DNA of 64,000 bases from contig NZ_MSZZ01000034.1 in assembly GCF_002093975.1 (NCBI RefSeq), positions 62,001 through 126,000 on the forward strand. The letters are read 5' to 3'. A model generated the notes under the pieces. The model was not told the origin of the DNA. It saw only the letters and a list, made by a program, of their open reading frames with translations, and searched no databases. Shown piece by piece: positions 1 through 36,583 of this stretch. The position numbers and the translations under genes are program-made. Each line of letters starts with the position of its first letter. Position 1 is the first letter of the stretch. This stretch comes from Thermoactinospora rubra (GTDB lineage: Bacteria > Actinomycetota > Actinomycetes > Streptosporangiales > Streptosporangiaceae).

Positions 1-631
1 TGGTCAGCCTGATCGCCTCGGCCGAGCCCTGCGCCAGCCGTACGGCCAGCTCCAGCGCCACCTCCTGGACCCGCTCGTCGTCCACGCACAGGCTGACCAG
101 GCCCATGCGCTCGGCCTGCTCGCCCGTCACCGGCTCGCACAGCAGCAGGTGGTACTTGGCCTTGGCCAGCCCGCACAGCAGCGGCCAGACGATCGCCGCG
201 TGGTCGCCGGCGGCCACGCCCAGCCGCGTGTGCCCGTCGATGATCTTCGCGGTACGGCCGGCGACGGAGATGTCGGCCAGCAGCGCCACCGCCAGCCCGG
301 CGCCCACGGCCGGTCCCCGGATGGCCGAAACGATCGGCTTGGAGCAGTTGACGACGTTGTAGACGATGTCGCGGGCCTCGGCGAAGACGCGCATCCGCGT
401 GGCGTGGTCGCGCATCATCTCCTCGATCATGGACAGGTCGCCGCCCGCGGAGAACGCCTCGCCCTCGCCCGTGACGACCACGGCGCGCACCGAGTCGTCG
501 CGGTCCACCTCGGGCCAGATCTCGGCCAGCTCCCGGTGGCCGGTCATGTCGACGGCGTTGAGCCGGCCCGGCCGGCTGATGGTGATCCTCAGCACCCCCT
601 CGGCGGGGGTGTCGGTCCTCAGCTGTCCCAC
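1..631 (-). CDS. enoyl-CoA hydratase/isomerase family protein (3' part missing)
   Basis: About 210 codons are visible and the C-terminus lies beyond position 1. The crotonase fold is clear: an N-terminal beta strand ending in [10 protein letters not shown], the oxyanion-hole segment [12 protein letters not shown], and the second CoA/oxyanion motif [18 protein letters not shown]. These proteins hydrate or isomerise acyl-CoA thioesters; the substrate cannot be read from the sequence. The GTG start at 631-629 is chosen because it overlaps the end of the upstream esterase gene by 13 nt, which suggests translational coupling. It is the third gene of a minus-strand operon with the esterase and the amidotransferase-like gene, so a role in acyl or carboxylate breakdown is plausible but inferred. 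Confidence 0.85.
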
Positions 632-1536
632 AGGGCTCCCTTCAGCCGGTCCGCGACGTACTCCCGGGCCTGGGCGGCCTGGTCGAAGAAGCCGGGCAGG
701 GCGAAGAAGCTGTGCACCGCGCCGTTGAACCGGCGCACCTCCACCGGGACGCCCGCCTGGGCCAGGCGCGTGCCGTACGCCTCGCCCTCGTCGCGCAGCA
801 CGTCGCACTCGGCGGTGACCACGGTGGCGGGCGGCAGGCCGGCGAAGGAGGCCAGCCGCAGCGGGGACAGGCGCGGGTCGGCCGGGTCGGCGCCGGCGGC
901 GTACTGGCGGACGAACCAGGCCATCTCCTCGGCGTCCAGGCCGAAGCCGCTGGCGAAGTGCCGGTAGCTGGGGGTGTCCATGGCCACGTCGGTGATCGGG
1001 TAGACCAGCACCTGGTGGGCGAGCGTGAGCCCGGCGTCCCTGGCCTGCCAGGCGGCCACCGCGGCCAGGTTGCCCCCGGCGCTGTCGCCCATCACCGCGA
1101 CCGTGCCGTTGCACTGGTAGAAGGCCGGGCGGGCGAACAGGTCGCGCACCACGCTCCAGGCGTCCTCGGCCGCGGCGGGGAAGGGGTGCTCCGGGGCGAG
1201 CCGGTAGTCCACCGACACCACCACGGCGCCGGTGCGGATGGCCAGGTCGCGGGCGAGCGCGTCGTTGCGCCGCACGCTGCCGAACACCCAGCCGCCGCCG
1301 TGGAAGTAGACGACCACCGGAAGAGCCTCCTGCCCAGGGTCGGCCCGGTAGATCCGCACCGGCACGTGCTCGACGAACTCGTCGCGGACCAGCGGCAGCC
1401 TGGGCCTGGGGCCGCGCTGCAGCGCGAACCCGTCGTGGGCGCGCATCTCGCGGATGGCGTCCAGGTCCAGCACGGACAGGTCGGTGTTGAGGTCGGAGGG
1501 GTAGCGGGCGACGAAGGCCGCTGCCTGTGGGTGCAT
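619..1536 (-). CDS. alpha/beta hydrolase, HSL-type esterase/lipase
   Basis: A 305-residue protein of the hormone-sensitive-lipase family. The oxyanion motif HGGGW is at residues 79-83, the nucleophile elbow GDSAGG at 150-155 (Ser152), and the rest of the triad is Asp245 (ECDVLRDEG) and His275 (GAVHSFF). All catalytic residues are present, so it should be an active carboxylesterase on short or medium acyl esters; its natural substrate is unknown. There is no signal peptide. The ATG has no Shine-Dalgarno sequence but a TAGATT box (1549-1544) lies 7 nt upstream, so it may also be transcribed as a leaderless mRNA. That box includes the TAG stop of the preceding gene. The 3' end overlaps the hydratase start. 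Confidence 0.9.
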
Positions 1537-1546
1537 AGCGCAAAAT

Positions 1547-2233
1547 CTAGCGGGCGGCCTCGACGAAGTGCTCGAATACCCGGGAGTCGGGATCGCGCTC
1601 GGGGTGCCACTGCACGCCCACGCCGAAGCGGTGGCCCTGCAGCTCGATGCCCTCGACGATCTGGTCGTCGGCCCAGGCCACCGCCAGCAGCCCGGCGCCC
1701 AGGCGGCGCACCGACTGCTCGTGGGGCGCCACCACCTCCACCCGGTCGCCCACGGCCTTGCCGAGCTTGCTGGAGACGCTCACCTGGATGACGTGGCGCG
1801 CGCCCGGCTCCCCGTGCCTGTCGTGGTCGACCACGTCGGGCAGCCAGGGGATGAGCGTGCCGCCCTGGGCGACGTTCAGCACGTGCATGCCGCGGCCGAT
1901 GGCCAGGATCGGCAGGCCGGCCTGGATCGCGGCGCGGGCCAGGGCCAGCTCGAACCGGTCGCGGCCGGGCTGCGGGTCCGGCAGGCGCTCGTCGTGGGGC
2001 TCGCCGTAGGTGTCGGCGCCCACCGGCGTGCCGCCCGCCAGCACCAGGCCCCGCAGGGTGCGGACGTAGTCCTCGACCGCCTTCAGGCCGATCGGCGGCA
2101 GGATCACCGGGGCGCCGCCGGCCCGCTCGACCGCCTTGGCGTACGCCGGGGGCGACAGCACCGCCTCCCTGACCCAGGTGTCCCACCTGGCGGCCTCGTG
2201 GTAGGCGGTGATACCGATCAGTGGACGGGACAT
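1547..2233 (-). CDS. class I glutamine amidotransferase-like protein (PuuD/GGH family), catalytic Cys replaced by Gly
   Basis: A 228-residue protein of the gamma-glutamyl-GABA hydrolase family (peptidase C26 fold). Family landmarks are GITAYHEAARW at the N-terminus, VLAGGTPVGADTYGE around 64-78, the nucleophile-elbow region near 107-122, and the His-Glu pair VQWHPE (His210, Glu212). The elbow reads PILAIGRGMHVLN, whereas active members have Cys where Gly113 sits (usual form ICRGMQ). The codon is GGC at 1897-1895, one base from TGC. His and Glu remain, so the protein looks like a folded pseudoenzyme rather than a decayed gene. A GGAG Shine-Dalgarno sequence supports the ATG at 2233. It is the first gene of the operon with the esterase and hydratase. 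Confidence 0.85.
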   Translation of the reverse strand: MSRPLIGITAYHEAARWDTWVREAVLSPPAYAKAVERAGGAPVILPPIGLKAVEDYVRTLRGLVLAGGTPVGADTYGEPHDERLPDPQPGRDRFELALARAAIQAGLPILAIGRGMHVLNVAQGGTLIPWLPDVVDHDRHGEPGARHVIQVSVSSKLGKAVGDRVEVVAPHEQSVRRLGAGLLAVAWADDQIVEGIELQGHRFGVGVQWHPERDPDSRVFEHFVEAAR

Positions 2234-2387
2234 GCGCTCTCCAGGCCGTGCTCTCCAGAACCGTGCGACCTCGGGTGTGCCGGCCGCCGGGCCGGAACAG
2301 GGGCACCAGGCCCATCATGGCGCACTCTATTTCGGTATTGTCACCAAAACTCGATTCCGGGGGGCGCGTATGTGAAGACGTCCCTTC

Positions 2388-3083
2388 TCACGCCTCGTGG
2401 GAGCCCTCCAGGGCGGCCAGCGCCAGGGCGTAGTCGCGCCGTGCCCGGGCCAGGCCCATGAGGTCGCCGCGGCGGCGGTTGGCCTCGATGAGCAGCCGCC
2501 AGGCCGCGTCGTGGTACTCGTCGACCTGCAGGCAGCGGGCGGCCGCCTCGGCGGCCTCGGCGAAGGCGCCGCGCTCCAGCTCCAGGGCGGCCAGGCGGGC
2601 GGCGGCGCCGGCGGCCTGGTGGCGCAGCGCCGACCGCTCGCGGGTGACCCACTCGGCCGGGCCGTCCTCGGGCAGCAGGTCCCCGGCATACAGGCGGACC
2701 GCCTCGCGCAGCGCCCCGGCGGCACGCTCCCCGCGCCCGGCCCCGGCGATCGCGGCGCGGAACAGCGCCACGTCGCAGGCGGCGCCCGGCGGCAGCTCCA
2801 GCCGGTAGGCCTCGTCCACCCGGCCGATCAGCGGGTGCCCGGTCCCGGCGGCCAGGAAGCCGCGCAGCGTGGAGACGGCGACGTGCAGCCCGCGCCGCGC
2901 GGTGGCCAGGCGCACCTCCGGCCACAACGCCTCGATCGCGCTCTCGCGGTGCACCGGCCGGCCGGCGTGCATGGCCAGCAGCCGCAGCAGCGTGCGGGCG
3001 CGCCGGCGCAGGGGCGACAGGTCGAGCGGAACGCCGTCGACCTCGATCGCGAAGTCGGCGAAGCATCTGACGTACAGGCTCAT
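2388..3083 (-). CDS. AfsR/SARP-type transcriptional activator (winged helix + BTAD)
   Basis: About 231 residues. The N-terminal part (roughly 1-95) is an OmpR-like winged helix with the family order: strand-rich start VRCFADFAIEVDG, LRRRARTLLRLLAMHAGRPV, then SAIEALWPE and a recognition helix in RRGLHVAVSTLRG. The rest is an alpha-helical bacterial transcriptional activation domain (CDVALFRAAI, RLYAGDLLPED, RLAALELERGAFAEA, YHDAAWRLLIEANRRRGD). SARPs activate clustered genes by binding near the -35 region. It lies 3' of the CHAT gene on the same strand with only about 40 nt between them, so the two are probably co-transcribed. The start at ATG 3083 is chosen by domain fit; in-frame starts at 3101 and 3119 are possible. 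Confidence 0.85.
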   Translation of the reverse strand: MSLYVRCFADFAIEVDGVPLDLSPLRRRARTLLRLLAMHAGRPVHRESAIEALWPEVRLATARRGLHVAVSTLRGFLAAGTGHPLIGRVDEAYRLELPPGAACDVALFRAAIAGAGRGERAAGALREAVRLYAGDLLPEDGPAEWVTRERSALRHQAAGAAARLAALELERGAFAEAAEAAARCLQVDEYHDAAWRLLIEANRRRGDLMGLARARRDYALALAALEGSHEA

Positions 3084-3125
3084 GCAAGCTATGAGCCGCA
3101 TCCCGCCGGTTTGATACACGGCTGC

Positions 3126-5780
3126 TCAGGCCGCCCCGATGGCGCAGAACGCCCACCCGGCGGCCTGGTGCAGCGGGTCGGGCGGCAGCGCGGCACGCGC
3201 CTTTAGCAGGGCCTCGGCCGTGTCCAGCCCGCGGCCCAGCCCCTCGTGCAGCGCGGTCATCAGCGGCACCACGGCCCGGTCCGGCACGGGCGCGGTGCTG
3301 GCCACGATCCCCGCCGTGCCCCGCGGGAGCAGGGCCGCCGCCAGCCCCAGCAGCTCCTCGCCGCCGACCGGCTCCATCCGCCCGGAGTCGCAGCCGGCCA
3401 GCACCAGCCGGTACGGCGCGCGCTCCAGCCGCTCCACGTCGTGCACGGTCAGCGGCCCGTCGTGCAGCTGCAGCGAGGAGAACATGGGGCTGTCGGCCCG
3501 GAACGCTCCATGGGCGGCGATGTGCGTCAGGGCGCTGCCGTCCATGTGCTTGAGGACCGGCGCGGTGGCGGCCTGTTCGCCCTCCAGCACCGTGGCGGTG
3601 CCGTACAGCCGGGCCAGGATCGGCACCTCGGCGCCGCCACTGCCCAGGCCGGGCCCCCTGACCAGCACGACGGGGCCGCCGGGCGGGCGGATGCGGCGGG
3701 CGCGCAGCCAGGCGGCGGCCGACGGGCACACGCTCAGCGCCCGCTCGCGCAGCGCGGGCAGCAGCGCCCAGGGGACGTGATGGAGGCGGCCGGGCGGCAC
3801 CAGGACGAGCGGGCCGTCGCCCAGGTGCGGGACGGCGGCGCCCAGCAGGGCCTCCTGCAGCCGCAGCGCGCCCTCCTCCAGGCGGCCGCCGGCCCTGCCG
3901 TACGCGGTCCTGCGCAGCAGGGACGCCGCGTGCTCGGCCTCGGCGGCGGCCCGGGCCGCCGTGCCCGCGTCGAAGGCGCGCACCCGGCCGCGCCCGCACA
4001 GCAGCACCTTCAGCCGCCCGTCGACGACCACGATCTCGGCGAGCAGCCGGTCCCCCAGCTCGCGCAGCAGCGCCGCCGGGTCGAACCGCGCCGCCGGATC
4101 GGACAGGGCCGCCGTCTCGCCCCGGCCGCGCAAGGCCAGCATGCGGTTCCTGATCGCCCGCTCCAGCCGCCGCTGCTCGCGTTCGAGGGCCGGGGCCGCC
4201 GTGCCCTCCGCGCGGGCCTCGTCGATCCTGCTGGAGATCTCGCGGAAGGCGGTCAGGTCGCGCAGCAGCTCGGGGTCCTGCGGCGGCCGGACGGGCGGCA
4301 CGGCCAGCGCGGTGGCGCGCCAGCGCTCGCTCCACGCCAGCAGGCGGCGCGCGTCGTCCAGGACGGCGCGCTGGGCCAGGGTGGCCAGCTCGGCGCCCTG
4401 CGAGCCGACCCGGGCGCGCAGCTCGGCGGCCCCCAGCGTCATGCGGTGCTCGTCCAGCAGGTCCAGGCCGCGGCGGCAGGCCGCCAGCACCCCCGCCCTG
4501 CGGCCCGCCGTCTCCGCCAGCATGGCCCGGGCGAGCCAGCCGTCGACCCGGGCGTAGGCCGGGCCCCTGGTCCTGGCGCGGGCCGCCTCGGCCAGGTAGC
4601 GCGCGGCCTCGGCGGGCCGGCCCCGGGTGGCGGCCACGCGCCCGGCCAGCAGCCAGGCGCGCGGCGCCTCGGCGGGAGCGAGCTCGCTCAGCCGCCGGGC
4701 CACGCCGACGGCTTCACGCAGCGAGACCTCGCCCTCCCCTGCATCCCCTCCTGCGCTCTCGCCTGCGCCGCCGGGGACCTGCCCCGCCCGATGGCGAGCC
4801 TGGAGGGCGATGAGGCAGGCCGCGAGTTCCTGGGCCTGGCGGTGCTGGGCGCGGAAGGAGCGAGCCGCGGCACGGGCCCGGTCGATCGCCGCCTCCCACC
4901 GGCCGCAGGCCAGCGCCGCCCGGGCCGCGACGAGCAGGAGCTCGGCCCGCAGCAGCGGCGGCCCGCCCAGCCGGTCCAGACGCTCGATCGCGGCGCGCGC
5001 CTCCTTCAGCGCCTCCGCGGCCAGCCCGGCCACCAGGAGGATGCGGCCGCGCTCGACGGCCGCCTCGTGGGAGGGCGTGCCGAACTCCGCGAACCGCCGC
5101 TCGGCCCGGTCGAACAGCGCCAGCGCCGCCGGGACGTCTCCGGACCGGGAGGCCACGATGCCCTGGCTCAGCACCGCCACAGCCTTGTCGTGCTCCTGGC
5201 CGGTCGTCCCGAACAGGGTCTCGGCCAGCTGGACGTCGCCCCTGGCGCGATCGACGGACCCCAGCGCGAGATGGACGCGCGCCCTGATCGACACGGCACG
5301 CGCGAGCCAGATCGTGTCGGCGTTCCTGCGCAGCAGCGGGACGGCTCGCCGTAAGTCCTCCAGGGCCTCCCGGTGGCGTCCCAGGACCTCCAGCACGTAG
5401 GCGCGGCGGAACAGGATCCGCGGGAGCGTCCGGCCGCCCGACGGCGCCGCGGCCTCGGCCAGCGCCACGGCCCGCGCCAGCGCCGCGAGGCTCTGCCGTA
5501 CCCGTCCCGCCCGGATGTAGGCGGCGCCCAGCGTGGCCAGGACGTCGGCCTGCCGGTCCGGCGACCCCGACAGCGCGGCGAGCCGCCGCGCCCGGCGCAG
5601 ATGCCGCAGCCCGGACGCCAGGTCGCCGAAGTCGCGCTCCCAGATGCCGATGACCTGGTGCGCGATCGACGCCTCCGCGGCGGGCGGGCCGGACTCCAGC
5701 AGCCGGCGGGCCGCGGCCAGCGCCTCGCGCGGGCGGGCGAACACCATCGGCAGCAGATCCGCGGCACTTCCCGGGATCAC
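3126..5780 (-). CDS. TPR-repeat protein with C-terminal CHAT (caspase-like) protease domain
   Basis: An 884-residue cytosolic protein. Residues about 1-450 are helical TPR-like repeats (for example RQADVLATLGAAYIRAGRVRQ, RRAYVLEVLGRHREALEDL, LSQGIVASRSGDVPAALALF), followed by a helical linker and a CHAT domain from about 590 to the end. The caspase-type dyad is intact: His757 in THIAAHGAF and Cys797 in LVLAGCDSG. CHAT proteases act on specific protein substrates or on partners in programmed-death and defence-like systems; the TPRs would serve as the sensor or docking part. The start is GTG at 5780 with a TAGCAT box 6 nt upstream and no Shine-Dalgarno sequence, that is, leaderless. It is divergent from the subtilase/sigma operon across 93 bp and is followed by the SARP gene. 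Confidence 0.9.
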   Translation of the reverse strand: MIPGSAADLLPMVFARPREALAAARRLLESGPPAAEASIAHQVIGIWERDFGDLASGLRHLRRARRLAALSGSPDRQADVLATLGAAYIRAGRVRQSLAALARAVALAEAAAPSGGRTLPRILFRRAYVLEVLGRHREALEDLRRAVPLLRRNADTIWLARAVSIRARVHLALGSVDRARGDVQLAETLFGTTGQEHDKAVAVLSQGIVASRSGDVPAALALFDRAERRFAEFGTPSHEAAVERGRILLVAGLAAEALKEARAAIERLDRLGGPPLLRAELLLVAARAALACGRWEAAIDRARAAARSFRAQHRQAQELAACLIALQARHRAGQVPGGAGESAGGDAGEGEVSLREAVGVARRLSELAPAEAPRAWLLAGRVAATRGRPAEAARYLAEAARARTRGPAYARVDGWLARAMLAETAGRRAGVLAACRRGLDLLDEHRMTLGAAELRARVGSQGAELATLAQRAVLDDARRLLAWSERWRATALAVPPVRPPQDPELLRDLTAFREISSRIDEARAEGTAAPALEREQRRLERAIRNRMLALRGRGETAALSDPAARFDPAALLRELGDRLLAEIVVVDGRLKVLLCGRGRVRAFDAGTAARAAAEAEHAASLLRRTAYGRAGGRLEEGALRLQEALLGAAVPHLGDGPLVLVPPGRLHHVPWALLPALRERALSVCPSAAAWLRARRIRPPGGPVVLVRGPGLGSGGAEVPILARLYGTATVLEGEQAATAPVLKHMDGSALTHIAAHGAFRADSPMFSSLQLHDGPLTVHDVERLERAPYRLVLAGCDSGRMEPVGGEELLGLAAALLPRGTAGIVASTAPVPDRAVVPLMTALHEGLGRGLDTAEALLKARAALPPDPLHQAAGWAFCAIGAA

Positions 5781-5786
5781 GCCTGG

Positions 5787-5792
5787 ATGCTA
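5787..5792 (-). promoter_or_regulatory. -10 box of the CHAT gene (leaderless promoter)
   Basis: On the minus strand this reads TAGCAT and ends 6 nt before the GTG start at 5780. No Shine-Dalgarno sequence is present, so transcription probably begins at the start codon. The 93-bp interval to the divergent protease gene must carry both promoters. Confidence 0.5.
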
Positions 5793-5873
5793 GATGTGGG
5801 CCAGCGGATGTATCAACCAGGGGCGGACCGGCTCGTTATCCACGACGGCTCAAGACATCCCGTGAGGAGCGCC

Positions 5874-7295
5874 ATGCCAGACCGGTTCAGGGAGCAGTTC
5901 AGGGCAGTCAGCGAGGCCTTCGCCCAGCAGCGCGGGATCGGCCTGGCGCACGGCCCGGGGCCCACGCCGTACCTCTACGAGAAAGGGTGCGTGATCGCGC
6001 GGCGGGAGGCCCGCGAGGCCGTCCTGAACGTCCTGCGGGACAACGGCCACGGCGACCCCGAGGAGCAGCCGTTAGAGGCCTCCGACGTCGTCCGCTTCCG
6101 CTTCGGCGACGGCTCCCGCGGCGGGACCGGCGGCGACCCGGACGTCGAGGAGGTGCTCAACTCGCTGCGGAGCCGCGCCGAGGCCGTACCGGTCACGAGG
6201 AACCACATCGTCGGCATCTGCACCGCCAACATCTGCCCCGGCGACGAGCCCGAACCCTATCCCCTCAGCACCGAGGAGGCGCTCAACCCCAGGCTCGCCT
6301 GCCGCGTCAGGGTGCTGGTCGTGGACACCGGCCTGGTCCAGGGCATCACGTCGGCCTACCCCTGGATGACCGGCGTCGGCCCCGTCTCAAGGGACGAGCA
6401 GGGCCAGCCGCACAAGGGCTACCTCCCCCTGTACGGCGGGCACGGCTCCTTCGTCGCCGGCATCGTCAAGGCCGTCGCCCCGCACGCCCTCGTGGAGGTC
6501 GACGACTCCCTGCCCGCCTGGCTCGCCGGGGCCGCCACCGAGGCGGAGCTCGGCGACATCCTGGCGCGGGAGCTGGACCGCGACGCGGAGGATCGGCCCG
6601 CGGTCATCAACCTGTCGGCCGGCATGGTCACCGAGGGGAACCGGGCCCCCGTGGGGCTGGGCAGGTTCATGGACCTCCTGGCCGCCTCGCAGACCGTCCT
6701 GGTCTGCGCCGCCGGGAACAACGGGCAGGACGAGCACTTCTATCCCGCCCGCTACGCGGCCGACCCCCGCTACCGCCACAAGGTCATCTCCGTCGGCGCG
6801 CTGCGCGGGGACGGCTCGGGGCTGGCGTGCTTCACCAACCGGGGCGACTGGGTGAGCGTCTACGCGCCCGGCGAGCGGGTGATAGCGGCCTTCACGCCGG
6901 GCGACGACACCCCGCCGAGGTACGTCTACCGCCACAGCACCTTCCCGGAGTGCCGCTACCGCGGCGAGTATCCCGACTGCACCTGCGTCGTGCCCCGGCG
7001 CAAGGGCGCCCTGACCCTCCAGGAGGCCGGGCAGCCCGAGAGCCACGCCAGCGAGGAGGCCTACACCGGCTTCGCCCGCTGGAGCGGCACGTCCTTCGCC
7101 ACGCCGATGGTGGCGGGCATGCTGGCCAACCACCTGCTCGCCAACCAGATCCTCGACGCGGAGGGCCGCATCGACCCGGCGCGGGCGGTGGCGGACCTGA
7201 TGGCCAAGGTCGTGCCCCTGCCGCTGCCGGACGGGACGCGCGTGCCGACCCTGGTGCCCGCGACCTGGCGCAGCGGCCCCTACGAGAACGTCTGA
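5874..7295 (+). CDS. cytosolic S8 family (subtilisin-like) serine protease
   Basis: 473 residues with no signal peptide and no obvious pro-domain, so it should act inside the cell. The catalytic set is complete: Asp151 (VLVVDTG), His190 (GGHGSFVAG), the oxyanion Asn in CAAGNNG (282-283) and Ser407 (WSGTSFATPMVAG). Residues 1-140 are family-specific. Between the usual catalytic-domain strand APGERVIAAF and the Ser motif there is an insert of about 60 residues (341-400) with Cys360, Cys369 and Cys371. The ATG at 5874 follows GAGGAG with good spacing. It is the first gene of a three-gene run with a sigma factor 13 nt downstream, and is divergent from the CHAT gene, so the two proteases are likely to work in one pathway (inference). 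Confidence 0.9.
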   Translation: MPDRFREQFRAVSEAFAQQRGIGLAHGPGPTPYLYEKGCVIARREAREAVLNVLRDNGHGDPEEQPLEASDVVRFRFGDGSRGGTGGDPDVEEVLNSLRSRAEAVPVTRNHIVGICTANICPGDEPEPYPLSTEEALNPRLACRVRVLVVDTGLVQGITSAYPWMTGVGPVSRDEQGQPHKGYLPLYGGHGSFVAGIVKAVAPHALVEVDDSLPAWLAGAATEAELGDILARELDRDAEDRPAVINLSAGMVTEGNRAPVGLGRFMDLLAASQTVLVCAAGNNGQDEHFYPARYAADPRYRHKVISVGALRGDGSGLACFTNRGDWVSVYAPGERVIAAFTPGDDTPPRYVYRHSTFPECRYRGEYPDCTCVVPRRKGALTLQEAGQPESHASEEAYTGFARWSGTSFATPMVAGMLANHLLANQILDAEGRIDPARAVADLMAKVVPLPLPDGTRVPTLVPATWRSGPYENV

Positions 7296-7308
7296 CCGGG
7301 GAGGAACC

Positions 7309-7881
7309 TTGGACCACGAGGCCATCGGCCGGCTCTTCCGGGCCGCGGCCGCCGGCGACGCGGCGGCGTGGAAGAGCTTCGTCGAGGCGCTGAGCCCCCT
7401 GGTGTGGTCGGTCGTGCGGGCCCACGGGCTGCCCGAGGCCGACGCGGGCGAGGTCTACCAGACGACGTGGTTCCGCCTGGCCCAGAACCTCGGGCGGATC
7501 CGCGAGCCCGAGAAGGTGTCCACGTGGCTGGCCACGACGGCGCGCAACGAGGCGCTGAAGGCGATCCGGGCCAGGCGGCGGCTCGTGCCGGGCGACGAGG
7601 ACGCCTTCGAGCGCGTCGCCGACGAGCGGACGCCCGAGGCGGCGGTGATCGAGGCCGAGGAGGAGGCCGCGGCGGCCGAGCGGGACCGGCGGCTGTGGCA
7701 GGCGTTCCAGGAGCTCGGCGCCAAGTGCCGGCGGCTGCTGCGCATCCTCATCGGCTCCCCTCCGCACAGCTACCAGGAGGCCGCCGCGGCCCTGGGGCTG
7801 TCGGTGGGCAGCATCGGGCCGATGCGGCAGCGGTGCCTGCGGCAGTTACGGCTGCTGCTGGCCGAGCGAGGGATGGGATGA
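7309..7881 (+). CDS. RNA polymerase ECF-type sigma factor
   Basis: 190 residues with the two-domain ECF layout: sigma region 2 at about 5-90 (LFRAAAAGDAAAWKSFVEA, EVYQTTWFRLAQN, VSTWLATTARNEALKAIR), an acidic linker rich in Glu/Ala, and region 4 at about 128-185 with helix-turn-helix SYQEAAAALGLSVGSIGPMRQRCLRQL. The start is TTG at 7309, placed correctly after a strong GGGGAGGA sequence. It begins 13 nt after the protease stop codon and is followed 7 nt later by the small 154-residue protein, so the three are one transcription unit. No recognisable zinc anti-sigma factor is nearby; the neighbouring small protein or the proteases might regulate it, which is inference. Confidence 0.9.
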   Translation: MDHEAIGRLFRAAAAGDAAAWKSFVEALSPLVWSVVRAHGLPEADAGEVYQTTWFRLAQNLGRIREPEKVSTWLATTARNEALKAIRARRRLVPGDEDAFERVADERTPEAAVIEAEEEAAAAERDRRLWQAFQELGAKCRRLLRILIGSPPHSYQEAAAALGLSVGSIGPMRQRCLRQLRLLLAERGMG

Positions 7882-7888
7882 GCCGGGG

Positions 7889-8353
7889 ATGGACGAGGAC
7901 CTGTCGCAGGACGACCTGCTCGAGGCGGAGCTGCGCCGCGCCGCGGCCGTCCTGGACCCGGTGCCGGCGCACCTGGTGCGGGCCGCCGTCGAGGCCTTCG
8001 CGCTGCGCGGGCTGGAGGCGGAGCTGGCCGAGCTCACGTTCGACTCGCTGGAGGAGGCCGCCGCGGTCCGGTCGGGGTACGGCACGCGGCTGCTGACCTT
8101 CGCGGTCGCCGGCCGTACCGTCGACGTGGAGCTGTCGGGCGGCGAGTGGCCGGGCGGGGAGGGCGTGCGGCTGCTGGGCGGGGTGCACCCGGCCGAGCCG
8201 GCCGAGGTGGTCGTGGAGGGGCCGCTCGGGTCGCTGGCCGTGCGGGCCGACGAGCTGGGGCGGTTCTCGGCCGAGGGGGTGCCGCTCGGGCCGTTCAGCC
8301 TGCGGGTGCGCTTCTCCGACGCGGTCGTCGCCACCGAATGGATCACGGTGTGA
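7889..8353 (+). CDS. small helix-plus-beta protein partnered with the sigma factor, function unknown
   Basis: 154 residues. The first 55 are helical and acidic (LSQDDLLEAELRRAAA, PAHLVRAAVEAFALRGLEAEL). The remainder alternates short strands and ends in LGRFSAEGVPLGPFSLRVRF, which resembles a prealbumin or carboxypeptidase-regulatory-like beta sandwich. It has no membrane segment and no signal peptide. It follows the sigma gene after 7 nt, and in my experience similar proteins sit next to ECF sigma factors and CHAT or S8 proteases in other actinomycetes. A role as adaptor, substrate or anti-sigma-like partner is possible but not shown by any motif. Confidence 0.75.
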   Translation: MDEDLSQDDLLEAELRRAAAVLDPVPAHLVRAAVEAFALRGLEAELAELTFDSLEEAAAVRSGYGTRLLTFAVAGRTVDVELSGGEWPGGEGVRLLGGVHPAEPAEVVVEGPLGSLAVRADELGRFSAEGVPLGPFSLRVRFSDAVVATEWITV

Positions 8354-8418
8354 GGTTTCCTGCCCATTCCCCACATCAAATGCGATGATTTTTCGCCTTT
8401 TTTCGGACAGGCTCTCAT

Positions 8419-8436
8419 CGGTAAATAACATTACCG
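8419..8436. promoter_or_regulatory. inverted repeat CGGTAA-N6-TTACCG
   Basis: Perfect 6-bp arms separated by the AT-only-but-one spacer ATAACA. It lies about 190 bp upstream of the flavohemoglobin start in the AT-rich leader. It looks like an operator half-site pair rather than a terminator. Confidence 0.4.
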
Positions 8437-8583
8437 TTACGGATAGTTATGATTGTTCGCCTTTTGGGGTGAAACGGTTGTGACGTCCGAGAGGTGGTGT
8501 AAGACTCGCAACCGAGCGATCGGCTGCGCCGGGGCCAGGCCGGGCGCTCGTCACCCGGAACGTCAGGGAGGTGGAGCGACACG

Positions 8584-8602
8584 CCCGGAATACCATTCCG
8601 GG
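8584..8602. promoter_or_regulatory. perfect palindrome CCCGGAAT-ACC-ATTCCGGG
   Basis: Arms of 8 bp at 8584-8591 and 8595-8602, 3-nt centre, 22 nt upstream of the ATG at 8625. Its position just before the ribosome-binding region suggests an operator that represses the oxidoreductase gene, or a 5' UTR hairpin. It does not look like the NsrR sites known upstream of streptomycete hmpA genes. Confidence 0.5.
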
Positions 8603-8624
8603 CAAAGGGTGGGGTCAAAGGTCT

Positions 8625-9743
8625 ATGTCGTTGAATCCGCGTCTCGTCAAGGAGAGTTTCTCCGTCGTGGAACCGGTCGCCGACAAGGCGACGGCGTACT
8701 TCTACGGCCGGCTCTTCGCCGAGAACCCGCATCTGAGGGGAATGTTCCCGCCGGCCATGGACGTGCAGCGAGACCGCCTGTTCAGCGCGCTGACCCGGAT
8801 CGTGTGGAGCCTGGACAGCCCCGACAGCATGGCCTCCTATCTCGGCCAGCTGGGCAGGGACCACCGCAAGTACGGCGTGGTCGCCGAACACTACACGGCG
8901 GTGGGCAACGCGCTGCTCGCCACCATCAGGCGGTTCGCCGGCGAGGTGTGGAGCAGCGAGATCGAGGCCGCCTGGGTCGCGGCCTACGGGGTCGCCGCGA
9001 ACCTCATGATCGAGGCCGCCGACGCCGACGCGGGCGTCTCCCCCGCGTGGTGGCTGGCCGAGGTCGTCGACCACGAGGTGCGCAGGCCCGACATCGCCGT
9101 CATCACGCTGCGGCCCACGCAACGCCTGCCGTACACGGCCGGGCAGTACGTCAACGTGCAGACCGCCCGCTGGCCGCGGGTGTGGCGGACCTTCTCCATC
9201 GCCAACGCGCCGCGCCCCGACAACACCATCCGGCTGCACGTCCGGTCCGTGCCGGGCGGGTGGGTCTCCACCTCCCTGGTGCGCCACACCCGCATCGGCG
9301 ACACGCTCATGCTGGGCCCACCCATGGGGACGATGGCGCCTCCCGAGCGCGGCGACCGGGACATCCTGTGCGTGGCGGGCGGCACCGGGCTGGCGCCGAT
9401 CAAGGCCGTCATCGAGCACGTCATCGACTCGGGGCAGCGGCCGAACATCCACCTGCTGTACGGCGCGCGCACCGCGGCCGAGCTGTACGACCTGCCGGAC
9501 CTGATCAGGATGGAGTCGTCCTTCCCGTGGCTGCGGGTGCTGCCGGTGGTCTCCGACCAGCCCTCCTACGACGGGATGCGCGGCCGGCTGCCCGAGGTGA
9601 CGCGGCGCTTCCACTCCTGGGCCGAGCACGAGGTCTACGTGTGCGGGCCGCCCGCGATGGTCAACGAGACGGTACGGCGGCTGCAGGCCGACGGGGTGCC
9701 GCTCTCGCGCATCCACCGCGACGTCGCCCACGGCGAACGCTAG
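8625..9743 (+). CDS. flavohemoglobin-like globin/ferredoxin reductase (NO dioxygenase-type)
   Basis: 372 residues from the ATG at 8625. The N-terminal 130 residues are a globin domain (VKESFSVVEPVADKATAYFYGRLFAENPHLRGMFP, with a proximal His in DHRKYGVVAEHYTAV). This is followed by an FAD domain (PYTAGQYVNVQT, RTFSIANAP) and an NAD(P) domain (CVAGGTGLAPIKAVIEHV, VYVCGPPAMV). Such fusions oxidise nitric oxide to nitrate or act as haem-flavin oxidoreductases. The domain order and length match the actinobacterial two-domain flavohemoglobins. It stands alone, converging on the SDR gene with a 10-nt gap. A longer in-frame start at 8571 would run through the palindrome and is not favoured. Confidence 0.88.
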   Translation: MSLNPRLVKESFSVVEPVADKATAYFYGRLFAENPHLRGMFPPAMDVQRDRLFSALTRIVWSLDSPDSMASYLGQLGRDHRKYGVVAEHYTAVGNALLATIRRFAGEVWSSEIEAAWVAAYGVAANLMIEAADADAGVSPAWWLAEVVDHEVRRPDIAVITLRPTQRLPYTAGQYVNVQTARWPRVWRTFSIANAPRPDNTIRLHVRSVPGGWVSTSLVRHTRIGDTLMLGPPMGTMAPPERGDRDILCVAGGTGLAPIKAVIEHVIDSGQRPNIHLLYGARTAAELYDLPDLIRMESSFPWLRVLPVVSDQPSYDGMRGRLPEVTRRFHSWAEHEVYVCGPPAMVNETVRRLQADGVPLSRIHRDVAHGER

Positions 9744-9753
9744 AACCCGCGCG

Positions 9754-10545
9754 TCACACCGTCTTGAGCATCCCGCCGTCGACGAAGTACGTGGAGCCCA
9801 CGCAGTAGCCGGCCCGCTCCGAGCACAGGAAGACCACGAAGCTCGCGATCTCCTCCGGCGTGGCGAACCGGTTGATGGGAGCGTGCTCCCCGGCGACCTC
9901 GTCCAGGTACCCCCGCCAGTCGCCGCCGCTGCCGGCGGTGAGCTCCTTGGCCGTCCGCACCCAGTCGGGGGTGAGGACCAGGCCGGGGTTGACGCAGTTC
10001 ACGCGGATGTTGTCCGCGACGAGCTCGGTGGACAGCGCCTTGGAGAACATCATCAGCGCGGCCTTGGTCACGTTGTAGATCGGCTCGTACCACAGCGGCT
10101 GCACCGCGCAGATCGAAGCGTTGTGCAGGATGACCCCGCCGCCGCGCCGCCGCATGCCGGGGACGAGGCCGCGCGCCAGCCGCACCGCCGCCATGACGTG
10201 CAGGTCCCAGTAGGCCTGCCACTTGTCGTCGGGAGCGTCCATGACGGTCTCGTTGGACCCGGCGCCCGCGTTGTTGACGAGGATGTCCGCGCCCGCGAAG
10301 GCCTCCTCGGCCGCCGAGGTCAGCCGCGCCGTCCCCTCGGCCGTCGCCACGTCGCACGCGACGGGCACGACCCGCACGCCGTACGTCTCCCTGATGGCGC
10401 GCGCCGCCTCCTCCAGGCGGCCGGCGCCGCGCGCCGCGAGCACCAGATGCGCGCCCTCGGCGGCGAGGCCGCGTGCCACCGCGAGGCCGATGCCCGCGCT
10501 GCCGCCGGTGATGACGGCGACCTTGTCTGCCAGCCCGAGTTCCAC
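9754..10545 (-). CDS. SDR family NAD(P)-dependent oxidoreductase
   Basis: 263 residues with the classical short-chain dehydrogenase signature: cofactor loop TGGSAGIG near 14-21, NNAG at about 90, catalytic Ser in LHNASICAV and YNVTK as the YxxxK motif. It reduces or oxidises a carbonyl/alcohol pair of unknown identity. The GTG start is supported by GGGGAGG 5 nt upstream. It lies 36 nt downstream of the XRE/MmyB regulator gene on the same strand, a pairing often seen where the regulator controls a neighbouring dehydrogenase. Confidence 0.9.
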   Translation of the reverse strand: MELGLADKVAVITGGSAGIGLAVARGLAAEGAHLVLAARGAGRLEEAARAIRETYGVRVVPVACDVATAEGTARLTSAAEEAFAGADILVNNAGAGSNETVMDAPDDKWQAYWDLHVMAAVRLARGLVPGMRRRGGGVILHNASICAVQPLWYEPIYNVTKAALMMFSKALSTELVADNIRVNCVNPGLVLTPDWVRTAKELTAGSGGDWRGYLDEVAGEHAPINRFATPEEIASFVVFLCSERAGYCVGSTYFVDGGMLKTV

Positions 10546-10581
10546 GAGACCTCCCCAGCTCGCTCGTCCATGGAACAGGCC

Positions 10582-11385
10582 CTACCCGGTCAGGAACGCC
10601 TGGGCGGTCTGCTCGTCGGCGGGCCACAGCGTCTCGATGGCCAGCTCCGACACCGTCACGTCCAGCGGCGAGCCGAACGTGGCGATCGTGGTGAACATCG
10701 ACAGCACCATGTCGCCGTGCCTGATCCGGATCGGCAGCAGGATGTCGCCCGGTCCCGGCACGTGCGCGACGTTGAGCTCCACACCCGGGTAGGCGTACCC
10801 GGCCAGCTCGTCGTGCAGCTCGGTCAGGCGGCCGTCGCCCGACGCCTCGGCCTGGCGGCGCAGCCGGTGCAGCAGGTGGGCGCGCACCTCGGCGAGGTTG
10901 ACCAGCCTGCGCGCCATCCCGTCGGGGTGCAGGGTGAGCCGCAGCACGTTGACCGGCTCCTTCTCCAGCAGCTCGGGGGCCACGGCGGCGCCGAAGAAGG
11001 TCCCGGCCGCGTCGTTGGCCGCCACCAGGTTCCACGCCGCGTCGACCACCACCGCCGGGTAGGGGTTGTGGGCGCCGAGGATCTTGTCGATCGCCTGCCG
11101 TACCACGCCCATCTCCGGGGCCTGCACCTCGCGCTCGCGGAAGACGGGCGCGAACCCGGCGGCCACCAGCAGCCGGTTGCGGTGCCTGAGGGGGATGTCG
11201 AGCTCCTCGGCCAGTTTCATCACCATCTCGCGGCTCGGCCGGGCGCGCCCGGTCTCCAGGAAGCTGATGTGGCGCGCCGACACCTCGGCCTCGATCGCCA
11301 GATCCAGCTGGCTCACCCGGCGCCGCTGCCGCCAGGACCGCAGCAGCTCTCCGAAGGACTCCTCATGTACGGCAAGCGCTCCCAT
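10582..11385 (-). CDS. XRE-family regulator with MmyB-like ligand-binding domain
   Basis: 267 residues from the ATG at 11385. Residues about 8-70 form an HTH_3 DNA-binding domain (FGELLRSWRQRRRVSQLDLAIEAEVSARHISFLETGRARPS). The remaining part is an MmyB-type sensor domain (NPYPAVVVDAAWNLVAANDAA, VNVLRLTLHPDGMA, LAGYAYPG, ILLPIRIRHGD). Such domains bind small hydrophobic or aromatic ligands. A TAACGT box 8 nt upstream of the ATG and no Shine-Dalgarno sequence suggest leaderless expression. It precedes the SDR gene and probably regulates it as well as itself. Confidence 0.88.
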   Translation of the reverse strand: MGALAVHEESFGELLRSWRQRRRVSQLDLAIEAEVSARHISFLETGRARPSREMVMKLAEELDIPLRHRNRLLVAAGFAPVFREREVQAPEMGVVRQAIDKILGAHNPYPAVVVDAAWNLVAANDAAGTFFGAAVAPELLEKEPVNVLRLTLHPDGMARRLVNLAEVRAHLLHRLRRQAEASGDGRLTELHDELAGYAYPGVELNVAHVPGPGDILLPIRIRHGDMVLSMFTTIATFGSPLDVTVSELAIETLWPADEQTAQAFLTG

Positions 11386-34743: not shown

Positions 34744-35613
34744 TCAAGGCGCCAGGTGGCGGAACGCCTCGTGCGCCGAGCGCAGGCTGCGCCGCAGCGC
34801 CCGCTCCAGGTCCCCGGCGTCCTCGGCGAGCCTGCCCAGTTCCGGTACGGCCAGCGCGTCGGCCCCCGACTCGGCCACCAGCTCCTCGTACTGGGGCAGG
34901 CGGCTGCGCAGCTGCTCGATCTGGTGGCGGGCGCGGTAGGCGCGCTCGGCCTCGGCCACGTGGGCGGCGTAGGTCTCCAGCGCCTCCACCCGGGCCACCA
35001 CCGCCGCCTCGCTGCTGTCCAGCGCCCTGGCCAGCGGCTCGGCCACGGCCGCCACCTCGGGGGTGATCTCGCCCGCCACCAGCTCGCGGTGCTCGGTGCG
35101 CAGGCCGGACAGCTTGGCCAGCAGCCGGGCGATCTCCCACTCGTGCGCGGGGAGCGTCACGGCGTTGCGCGCGCCGTCCAGCAGCCCCTCGGTGTTGACA
35201 TCCGACTCGGTGATCGCGCGGATCGCGCGCTGGGCGCGGCGCAGCAGCCGCCGCGAGGCCTCGTCGAGGTCCTCGACCAGCACGTAGCGGCCCTCGTGCC
35301 AGCGGGCCTGCTGGTAGACGGCTCGCCCGGTCTCGGTCTCGTCGTGGTAGGAGTCCCTGGCGAAGATCAGCGCGAAGGCGGCCAGGGCCGCGCCCGCCAC
35401 GAGCAGCGAGCCGACGCCCGCGACCGCCATGCCCGTCAGGACGAGGATCCCGCACACGAACAGCGCCACGCCGAGGTCGGGGATCCGGCTCGCGAGGTGC
35501 CGGCTCCGGGGCTCGGGCACCCACCCGTCGCGGACACGCGCCAGCAGGCTGGCGTTCTCGCGGAGCAGCCGAGCCTCGTCCTCCGGCACTTCCGGATCAA
35601 CCACGACATCCAT
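34744..35613 (-). CDS. membrane-anchored coiled-coil protein, paralog A
   Basis: 289 residues of no family I recognise. It starts with a short cytosolic segment containing DPEVPEDEARLLRENASLLARVRDGWVPEP, then two membrane spans (GVALFVCGILVLTGMAVAGVGSLL / VAGAALAAFALIFA) and a long helical C-terminus rich in Arg/Glu with alternating heptads, likely a coiled coil. It is 55 nt downstream of paralog B on the same strand, and residues around 157-228 are encoded by DNA identical to that in paralog B. It ends 7 nt from the convergent MurG-like gene. Confidence 0.75.
   Translation of the reverse strand: MDVVVDPEVPEDEARLLRENASLLARVRDGWVPEPRSRHLASRIPDLGVALFVCGILVLTGMAVAGVGSLLVAGAALAAFALIFARDSYHDETETGRAVYQQARWHEGRYVLVEDLDEASRRLLRRAQRAIRAITESDVNTEGLLDGARNAVTLPAHEWEIARLLAKLSGLRTEHRELVAGEITPEVAAVAEPLARALDSSEAAVVARVEALETYAAHVAEAERAYRARHQIEQLRSRLPQYEELVAESGADALAVPELGRLAEDAGDLERALRRSLRSAHEAFRHLAP
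34929..35142. repeat. 214-bp perfect direct repeat, copy 1
   Basis: Identical base for base to 35854-36067, at an offset of 925 bp, while the flanking parts of the two paralogous genes differ at many positions. It encodes the segment from EWEIARLLAKLSGLR to EAERAYRAR. Confidence 0.95.
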
Positions 35614-35668
35614 TACTGCGCGATCCTATGGCGGGGCATGTCCGCCTGCCAGCGCTCCGGCCAAGCGG

Positions 35669-36583
35669 TCATCTCTCGAGATAGCGGAAGGCGTCGCGGG
35701 CCGACAGCACGCTGCGCCGCAGGGCCTGCTCCAGGCGGTCGGCGTCCTGCGAGAGCCGTTCGATCTCCGGGCCGATGTAGTCCTGGGCGCCGGACTCGGC
35801 CAGCAGTTCCTCATAGCGCGGCAGCTTGGCGCGCAGCTGCTCGATCTGGTGCTGGGCGCGGTAGGCGCGCTCGGCCTCGGCCACGTGGGCGGCGTAGGTC
35901 TCCAGCGCCTCCACCCGGGCCACCACCGCCGCCTCGCTGCTGTCCAGCGCCCTGGCCAGCGGCTCGGCCACGGCCGCCACCTCGGGGGTGATCTCGCCCG
36001 CCACCAGCTCGCGGTGCTCGGTGCGCAGGCCGGACAGCTTGGCCAGCAGCCGGGCGATCTCCCACTCCTGCTCGGGCAGGATCACCGTGTTGCGCGCCTC
36101 GTCGAGCAAGCCCTCCTGGTTGACCTGGGAGCTCATCACCGAGTCCACCGCGGCCTGCGCCCGCCGCATGAGGCGCATGGACGCCTCGTCGAAGCGGTCG
36201 AGCAGCACGTAGCGGCCCTCGTTGGCGCGCGCCTGCTCGTACACCCGCCGCTCGGCCTCGGCGCGGCGTTCGGCGTCGCTCATCGGGTCCCCCCTGACCA
36301 GCGAGCCGAAGAACAGCAGCGACAAGCCCAGCATGACCAGCGCGAAGGGCGCCAGGATCTCGGCGTCGAACAGCATCAGCGCCATCACCAGCGAGGTGAG
36401 CGCCGCCAGCGCCCGGGCGGCCTGGTAGCCGGTCCTCGCGATGGCCCGCCGGCGGTCCCGGGGCGGGACCCAGCCGTTGCGCATGCGTACTAATAGCGGA
36501 GCGTTGGCACGCAGGATCGTCGCGACCTCCGGAGCGACTTCCGGACTCACTACCACACTCGAGCCACGTCCCGCCACGCGCAC
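35669..36583 (-). CDS. membrane-anchored coiled-coil protein, paralog B
   Basis: 304 residues, same layout as paralog A: VVVSPEVAPEVATILRANAPLLVRMRNGWVPP, two membrane spans (LAALTSLVMALMLF / ILAPFALVMLGLSLLFFGSLV), a helical region with RRAQAAVDSVMSSQVNQEG, then the EWEIARLLAKLSGLRTEHRE segment shared exactly with A. Start is GTG at 36583; GTG 36556 would align better with the start of paralog A. A good promoter lies upstream (36609-36638). Function unknown; the shape suggests a membrane sensor or scaffold. Confidence 0.75.
   Translation of the reverse strand: MRVAGRGSSVVVSPEVAPEVATILRANAPLLVRMRNGWVPPRDRRRAIARTGYQAARALAALTSLVMALMLFDAEILAPFALVMLGLSLLFFGSLVRGDPMSDAERRAEAERRVYEQARANEGRYVLLDRFDEASMRLMRRAQAAVDSVMSSQVNQEGLLDEARNTVILPEQEWEIARLLAKLSGLRTEHRELVAGEITPEVAAVAEPLARALDSSEAAVVARVEALETYAAHVAEAERAYRAQHQIEQLRAKLPRYEELLAESGAQDYIGPEIERLSQDADRLEQALRRSVLSARDAFRYLER
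35854..36067. repeat. 214-bp perfect direct repeat, copy 2
   Basis: The second copy of the sequence at 34929-35142. The sharp ends of identity inside the two reading frames point to recent gene conversion rather than simple tandem duplication. Confidence 0.95.

Follow-up and report, generated by a model that had tools for sequence, protein, structure and literature searches.

Gene Content of the Locus

Positions 62,001-126,000 of contig NZ_MSZZ01000034.1 of Thermoactinospora rubra (NCBI RefSeq GCF_002093975.1), a stretch of 64,000 nucleotides here called the window, contain a compact cassette of five genes. These encode a protease with tetratricopeptide repeats (TPR) and a CHAT domain, a cytosolic subtilase of family S8, an extracytoplasmic function (ECF) sigma factor, a small protein of 154 residues and a regulator of the Streptomyces antibiotic regulatory protein (SARP) type. 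Comparison with related genomes shows that the first four travel together, that one bipartite promoter-like site stands before both the S8-sigma-small operon and the separate SARP gene, and that the CHAT gene has a different promoter, leaderless and housekeeping-like. The interpretation to which we give slightly better than even weight is that of an ECF54-type switch, in which the proteases would release the sigma factor, and the sigma factor would drive its own operon and the neighboring regulator. Unless a locus is named, coordinates are those of the window, and the features are as follows:

2388-3119, minus strand: SARP-type regulator gene, with Trans_reg_C and BTAD domains; probable true start ATG 3083 (231 residues)
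3093-3118, minus strand: predicted ECF promoter of the SARP gene, TGTATCA-N14-GGCTC, 9 nucleotides upstream of ATG 3083
3126-5780, minus strand: TPR-CHAT protease gene, 884 residues, His757/Cys797
5787-5792, minus strand: -10-like box TAGCAT of the CHAT promoter, 6 nucleotides upstream of the CHAT GTG; leaderless, housekeeping-like
5809-5834, plus strand: predicted ECF promoter driving S8, sigma and small genes as one operon, TGTATCA-N14-GGCTC
5874-7295, plus strand: cytosolic S8 subtilase gene, ATG 5874, 473 residues, Asp151/His190/Ser407
7309-7881, plus strand: ECF sigma factor gene, 190 residues, TTG start behind GGGGAGGA, 13 nucleotides after the S8 stop
7889-8353, plus strand: small partner protein gene, 154 residues, 7 nucleotides after the sigma gene

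A preliminary description, made from the DNA alone, had proposed this five-gene layout, and the coordinates and domain scans uphold it. The CHAT protein is recognized by Pfam CHAT (E 4.6e-29) plus TPRs, the subtilase by Pfam Peptidase_S8 (E 5.2e-19), the sigma factor by Pfam Sigma70_r2 (E 3.1e-13) and NCBIfam sigma70-ECF (E 1.4e-23), and the SARP by Pfam Trans_reg_C (E 4.2e-07) and BTAD (E 4.3e-07), both above cut-off. The TTG assigned as start of the sigma gene (7309, behind the sequence given above) holds as well, as does the residue numbering of the two active sites, which are intact and kept in relatives. Among aligned subtilases Asp151 is present in 38/39 (one gap), His190 in 39/39 and Ser407 in 38/39, the exception at Asp151 and at Ser407 being the same sequence, a broken copy in locus L063; His757 and Cys797 are found in all 33 CHAT sequences reaching those columns (7/40 are truncated). 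None of the five proteins has a membrane-like segment (highest 19-residue hydropathy 1.54), and a control run of the five cassette profiles on window positions 10001-64000 gave zero matches. Against solved chains the CHAT protein had no sequence match at E<=0.01, and the S8 structure model, built from 2 sequences with a predicted local distance difference test score (pLDDT) of 37, was unusable.

Conservation of the Four-Gene Core

The S8 protein was found at E<=1e-20 in 27 genomes among 98 relatives (30 places), and a search of 396 genomes of the phylum returned 8 genomes with 6 new places. Loci extending about 9 kb to either side of S8, where the contig allowed, were searched in six frames with profiles seeded by the window proteins; these profiles were iterated on the same loci they describe, some loci end at contig ends, and start codons in relatives were picked by script. 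In the 36 S8-selected loci, the window included, a CHAT gene is always near (36/36), and the combination of CHAT, S8, sigma and small protein is complete in 33; sigma factor and small protein are missing from L063 (the broken copy), L074 and L076. A SARP gene accompanies the set in 3/36.

The association was also recovered from the small protein, found at 49 places in 41 of the 396 genomes (8 of these places lie in loci from the S8 search). Around the 41 hits analyzed, in 38 loci, a sigma gene lies within 700 nucleotides in 35/41, a CHAT gene within 10 kb in 28/41 and an S8 gene within 10 kb in 25/41; all three are present at 22/41, and a SARP at 0/41. In 10/41 there is a sigma factor and neither protease within 10 kb, in 3/41 both proteases and no sigma factor within 700 nucleotides, in 3/41 a CHAT with no S8 found, and in another 3/41 none of the partners. 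These absences are soft, since the genome searches scored the best few candidates per genome (e.g., 2, or 9 for the small protein). The small protein pairs with the sigma factor where proteases are missing and with the proteases where the sigma factor is missing, and it is thus a candidate link between the two halves of the system. Gene order and strand are highly variable among these loci, suggesting a functional rather than purely positional linkage. A locus of Knoellia koreensis, L004, which was reached via the small protein as well, has all four genes.

Co-occurrence extends to whole genomes. Cassette-type CHAT proteins (E<=1e-40) occur in 22 genomes, all of them within the 41/396 that encode the small protein (2.3 were expected; p 3.5e-25), and the same holds by genus (13/13, p 2.3e-14), both p-values ignoring relatedness. 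For sigma-small pairs with no CHAT gene nearby, such a CHAT exists elsewhere in six of the eight genomes tested (8 of 10 such loci). Within genus g25, six genomes carry both CHAT and small protein, and in the four listed without CHAT the small protein is missing too. The preliminary description had taken the genes for one unit, and the four-gene core of the S8-selected loci, with the pairing repeated from the small protein, agrees with it: the neighborhood search it had put forward reveals the sigma factor and the 154-residue protein beside S8 and CHAT well beyond this genome.

The T. rubra genome itself holds a second CHAT-small-sigma-S8 set without SARP (L042, C24:101000-119000, at 5468-10797 of the locus), and a third CHAT protein (L077, on C13, near 8684-9502) with no S8, sigma or small partner in 19.5 kb. 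In L072 (3927-9119) two facing S8-sigma-small sets, one of whose small proteins has no linker, flank a matrixin-type metalloprotease gene with its own copy of the promoter-like site described below.

The Bipartite Promoter-Like Site

On the S8 side of 31 divergent CHAT/S8 gaps TGTATCA is recurrent, and S(G/A)CTC lies at a constant 14 bases from it, which defines the bipartite site TGTATCA-N14-S(G/A)CTC. The strict pattern is found in 16/39 S8 upstream regions, against 0.01 in block shuffles (here and below in two-base units). The 8.2-Mb genome of T. rubra has exactly two exact sites, one before S8 (5809-5834) and one before the SARP gene (3093-3118). With a matrix trained on 21 S8-upstream sites, the S8-type loci (670 kb) yielded 46 sites at a score of at least 18, of which 20 are training sites, whereas the reversed control gave 1 and block shuffles 0.4; the small-protein loci (646 kb) yielded 18, versus 3 reversed and 0.4 shuffled. 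No site reached that score in window positions 14001-64000. A site precedes the S8, sigma or small gene in 25/38 S8-type loci. Furthermore, L113, where no protease was found within 10 kb, has a site scoring 23.2 at 85 nucleotides upstream of the sigma domain, which indicates that the site goes with the sigma factor and not with SARP, LuxR-type regulator or proteases.

We also considered the site as the -35 element of the divergent CHAT promoter, given that its other strand reads TTGATACA. This was rejected because the distance to the CHAT -10 box varies widely while the S(G/A)CTC spacing stays at 14, and because the site also precedes SARP and LAL genes.

Strong sites lie directly behind the CHAT stop, as with SARP in the window, in L115 (4958), L133 (18238) and L135 (5218), with no convincing gene after them; the single sites in L071, L073, L004, L057 and L058 likewise led to no convincing output gene. 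In L138 a sigma factor and a small protein are present, and neither CHAT nor S8 was found within 10 kb; sites at 2837, 2874 and 9508 of this locus precede genes that by eye resemble those for a sugar-nucleotide dehydrogenase, a chain-length (Wzz-like) protein and an aminotransferase, so that the output there is perhaps an exopolysaccharide.

The Adjacent Regulator Gene

In actinomycetes, secondary metabolism is commonly governed by SARPs and by large ATP-binding regulators of the LuxR family (LAL). The sites before SARP genes had no part in the training of the matrix; the one in the window scores 23.5, and that of the relative L043 scores 20.9, 8 nucleotides upstream of the ATG. In the window the site overlaps the GTG annotated as start, 3093-3119 being the segment that carries it. 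The SARP start is thus probably ATG 3083 and not GTG 3119, since the closest orthologue, that of L043, starts there and 3093-3119 holds a promoter-like site; the SARP messenger may be leaderless. Close orthologues of this SARP exist in two of 53 other genomes of the genus, G029 (75% identity) and G050 (66%), and both adjoin a cassette, the next-best matches among these genomes having 33-38% identity.

In other loci a LuxR-type regulator occupies the place of the SARP. One of about 600 or 920-1030 residues adjoins the cassette in L046, L047, L048 and L050 and, within the same genus, in L052, L053, L060, L061 and L062. Before the full adjacent LAL gene a site, again outside the training set, scores at least 18 in 8/9 loci, and 15.6 in the ninth, L061. 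Pfam scans of 8 of the 9 LAL proteins place GerE above cut-off in 8/8; AAA_16 exceeds its cut-off in L052, L053, L060 and L061 and falls below it in L046, L047, L048 and L050. In L075 the site stands at the start of a gene for a 242-residue GerE protein.

The preliminary description had the SARP as a core component, freed by proteolysis together with the sigma factor. Its tie to the cassette is supported by the shared promoter-like site and by close orthologues that, in the 53 genomes of the genus, occur only beside cassettes. The remainder of that proposal is not supported. With SARP in 3/36 S8-selected loci and at 0/41 small-protein hits, and LAL elsewhere, a core role of the SARP lacks support; and since it bears its own copy of the sigma-type site, a transcriptional output is more likely than release by cleavage. 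The sigma factor thus probably turns on the SARP gene, rather than a protease setting free the SARP protein.

In L054 (7631-8710) only fragments of a LAL gene remain, and sites in L057 (10525) and L058 (11793) point at no regulator; all three are probably remnants of an output regulator that has been lost repeatedly. A terpene-synthase-like protein (Terpene_syn_C_2, 4e-8) is encoded behind CHAT in L052 (13516-15730), together with two proteins that by eye resemble a small GTPase and an Lrp/AsnC regulator, and a similar set is seen in L054, L055, L057-L060 and L062.

The CHAT Promoter and the Small Protein

In leaderless housekeeping promoters the -10 box lies a few nucleotides before the start codon. 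The pattern TANN[AT]T occurs 5-8 nucleotides upstream of a start codon in 21/38 CHAT genes, against 0.4 in single-base shuffles. Having a separate, housekeeping-like promoter, CHAT should be present before the sigma factor is active, and the two promoter classes suggest an order of events, with the sensor protease followed by the sigma operon and then by the regulator.

For the small protein, Pfam gives only a weak CarboxypepD_reg match (E 0.029, below the curated cut-off), which recurs at E<=0.1 in 19/34 family members (best 3.7e-4); the similarity belongs to the beta domain that follows the helical N-terminal part. Its structure model, resting on 2 sequences and with a pLDDT of 69, has two helices (7-21 and 27-62) followed by eight strands, residues 45-63 having a pLDDT below 50. 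We propose that the protein is anti-sigma-like in action and not a member of the class I anti-sigma factors.

A Proposed Switch and Its Alternatives

In the switch that we envisage, the sigma factor would read the bipartite site, making the operon autoregulated and the SARP its output. The small protein would keep the sigma factor inactive until the CHAT protease, produced all along and activated by a signal that the TPRs sense, would cut the small protein and free the sigma factor. Freed sigma factor would in turn yield more S8, sigma factor and small protein, as feedback, and SARP, which would relay the signal to further genes; in relatives a LAL regulator would fill this slot. Because the S8 gene lies under the sigma promoter, we place the subtilase as a second-step protease that may either clear the cut small protein, as an amplifier, or end the response, this being the least certain step. 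A biochemical precedent exists in the TPR-CHAT protein Csx29, which, according to the accessible part of PMC10028731, cleaves Csx30 and so relieves the ECF sigma factor that Csx30 inhibits. A bolder version, doubtful at present, would see here a general, CRISPR-free relay from caspase-like proteases to sigma factors in Actinomycetota, where a constitutive TPR-CHAT protease acts as sensor and cuts a small cytosolic anti-sigma protein of a new family, and the released ECF sigma factor boosts its own production and switches on a master regulator that differs between lineages (SARP here, LAL elsewhere).

Several observations weigh against the proposed switch. The small protein has no recognized anti-sigma domain, so that the anti-sigma step is one that we infer: Pfam assigns none of 34 small proteins to an anti-sigma family, the structure model resembles no PDB fold at E<=0.001, and the family profile finds nothing better than E 0.079 among solved structures. 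The near-invariant linker residue Arg61 was tried as the CHAT cut site and rejected, an Arg being present in 55/64 small proteins with CHAT nearby and in 11/13 without. Two of the eight sigma-small genomes tested, G477 and G473, have no CHAT. As for the promoter-like site, it precedes S8, sigma or small gene in only 5/38 small-protein loci at a score of at least 18 (10/38 at 15 or more), indicating that the motif is not phylum-wide; the second T. rubra cassette, L042, has no site of at least 18 and probably uses another promoter; and the SARP site of L044 is degenerate (score 10.5). The exact pattern matches 45 times in the 22 cassette genomes, versus 21 for the reversed pattern, and is near chance away from cassettes, and with one mismatch allowed the T. 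rubra genome has 18 matches versus 51 reversed; a wider regulon was accordingly rejected, the distant sites being near or below the reversed-pattern control. Finally, the available text of PMC8999054 describes ECF54 as having no anti-sigma factor.

The same review offers the alternative that merits most attention, in which no anti-sigma factor takes part, the proteases hold the system off by degrading the sigma factor itself and a signal halts the degradation; the small protein would here be an adaptor or scaffold. Section 3.3 of PMC8999054, as far as accessible, proposes such degradation for ECF54 by analogy with AntA/ClpXP. The missing anti-sigma domain accords with this idea, and S8 as first gene of the sigma operon fits a negative feedback, but it leaves unexplained why sigma factor and small protein pair in 35/41 cases, 10 of the 41 having no protease within 10 kb, and the promoter of CHAT is separate from the sigma operon. 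We regard it as possible but unlikely. A further scenario, and a very improbable one, is conflict or programmed death, with an invader signal activating CHAT and S8, many cell proteins being cut, and sigma factor and SARP as accessories. Conflict systems discussed in the accessible part of PMC8195603 include CHAT, caspase-like and TPR/ECF sets, and PADLOC matches the S8 subtilase (4.6e-7) and CHAT (BovA, 0.0039). These matches are weak, however, what recurs on the output side is promoter sites and regulators rather than effectors, and a search of 72,556 plasmid records detected no S8 relative at E<=1e-30. With no toxin, pore or suicide effector among the cassette genes and three flanking genes scanned with Pfam, the suicide or defense function contemplated in the preliminary description finds no backing.

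It could also be argued that the S8-sigma-small-CHAT core is real and that the SARP is a chance neighbor with a coincidental site, as its presence in 3/36 S8-selected loci and the degenerate site of L044 might suggest. Yet the site is one of two exact copies in 8.2 Mb, on the right strand and 9 nucleotides from the start; the SARP of L043 is likewise preceded by a site, as are LAL genes in the analogous position; and the only two close SARP orthologues in the 53 other genomes of the genus both lie beside a cassette. Such a coincidence thus seems a slender prospect.

Relation to Known Systems

In the available text of PMC8999054, ECF54, a group of actinobacterial ECF sigma factors, is known from gene neighborhoods only, and its conserved context comprises a carboxypeptidase, a subtilase and CHAT proteins, with proteolytic control proposed. 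The present sigma factor matches ECF54 by gene context, accompanied by a subtilase (5874-7295) and by CHAT (3126-5780), the latter in every S8-selected locus; in our own reading, the "carboxypeptidase" of that context may correspond to the weak CarboxypepD_reg similarity of the small protein. The idea of a protease-gated sigma factor in the preliminary description therefore fits the ECF54 literature and loses part of its novelty, the core combination being already described (PMC8999054, accessible part). Relative to that text, the core gene set is of a known kind, and the predicted site and the regulator link are new: the accessible part mentions neither a role for the small protein nor a promoter site nor an output through SARP or LAL, all of which are proposed here. 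In the openly accessible literature, ECF54 with subtilase and CHAT was found in PMC8999054 alone and SARP with CHAT, S8 and sigma factor in none; no report of the SARP/LAL link or of the site was found there either, and one may be in print in subscription papers. With the site and the regulator slot, ECF54 gains a testable circuit, which in T. rubra consists of two promoters, a single partner protein and a single output gene.

The likeness to Craspase (type III-E; Csx29, Csx30, CASP-sigma), as described in the accessible text of PMC10028731, is one of logic only: there a TPR-CHAT protein cuts a sigma-inhibiting partner, as is proposed here. The cassette differs in its extra S8 protease and in the size of the partner (154 residues versus 565 in Csx30), and no Cas-like protein is among the 8 proteins scanned with Pfam (window 622-9740), no genome-wide CRISPR search having been made. 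Conflict systems combining EACC2 or caspases with an ECF sigma factor and a TPR protein have a different gene set, the cassette having neither EACC nor TRADD-N in the Pfam scan. SARP and LAL pathway regulators are alike in domains, but here they would be the predicted output of a protease-controlled sigma factor. Should the proposed switch be correct, cytosolic caspase-like proteases would control SARP/LAL pathway regulators, and Craspase logic would exist without CRISPR; should the more doubtful general relay also hold, Craspase would represent an RNA-guided form of a protease-sigma logic that extends more widely.

Neighboring Genes

Two neighboring look-alike genes, of 289 and 304 residues, lie at 34747-36583, the first without a Pfam match at E<=0.001. 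Directly behind the small gene, positions 8571-9740 hold a Globin-FAD-NAD (flavohaemoglobin-like) gene.
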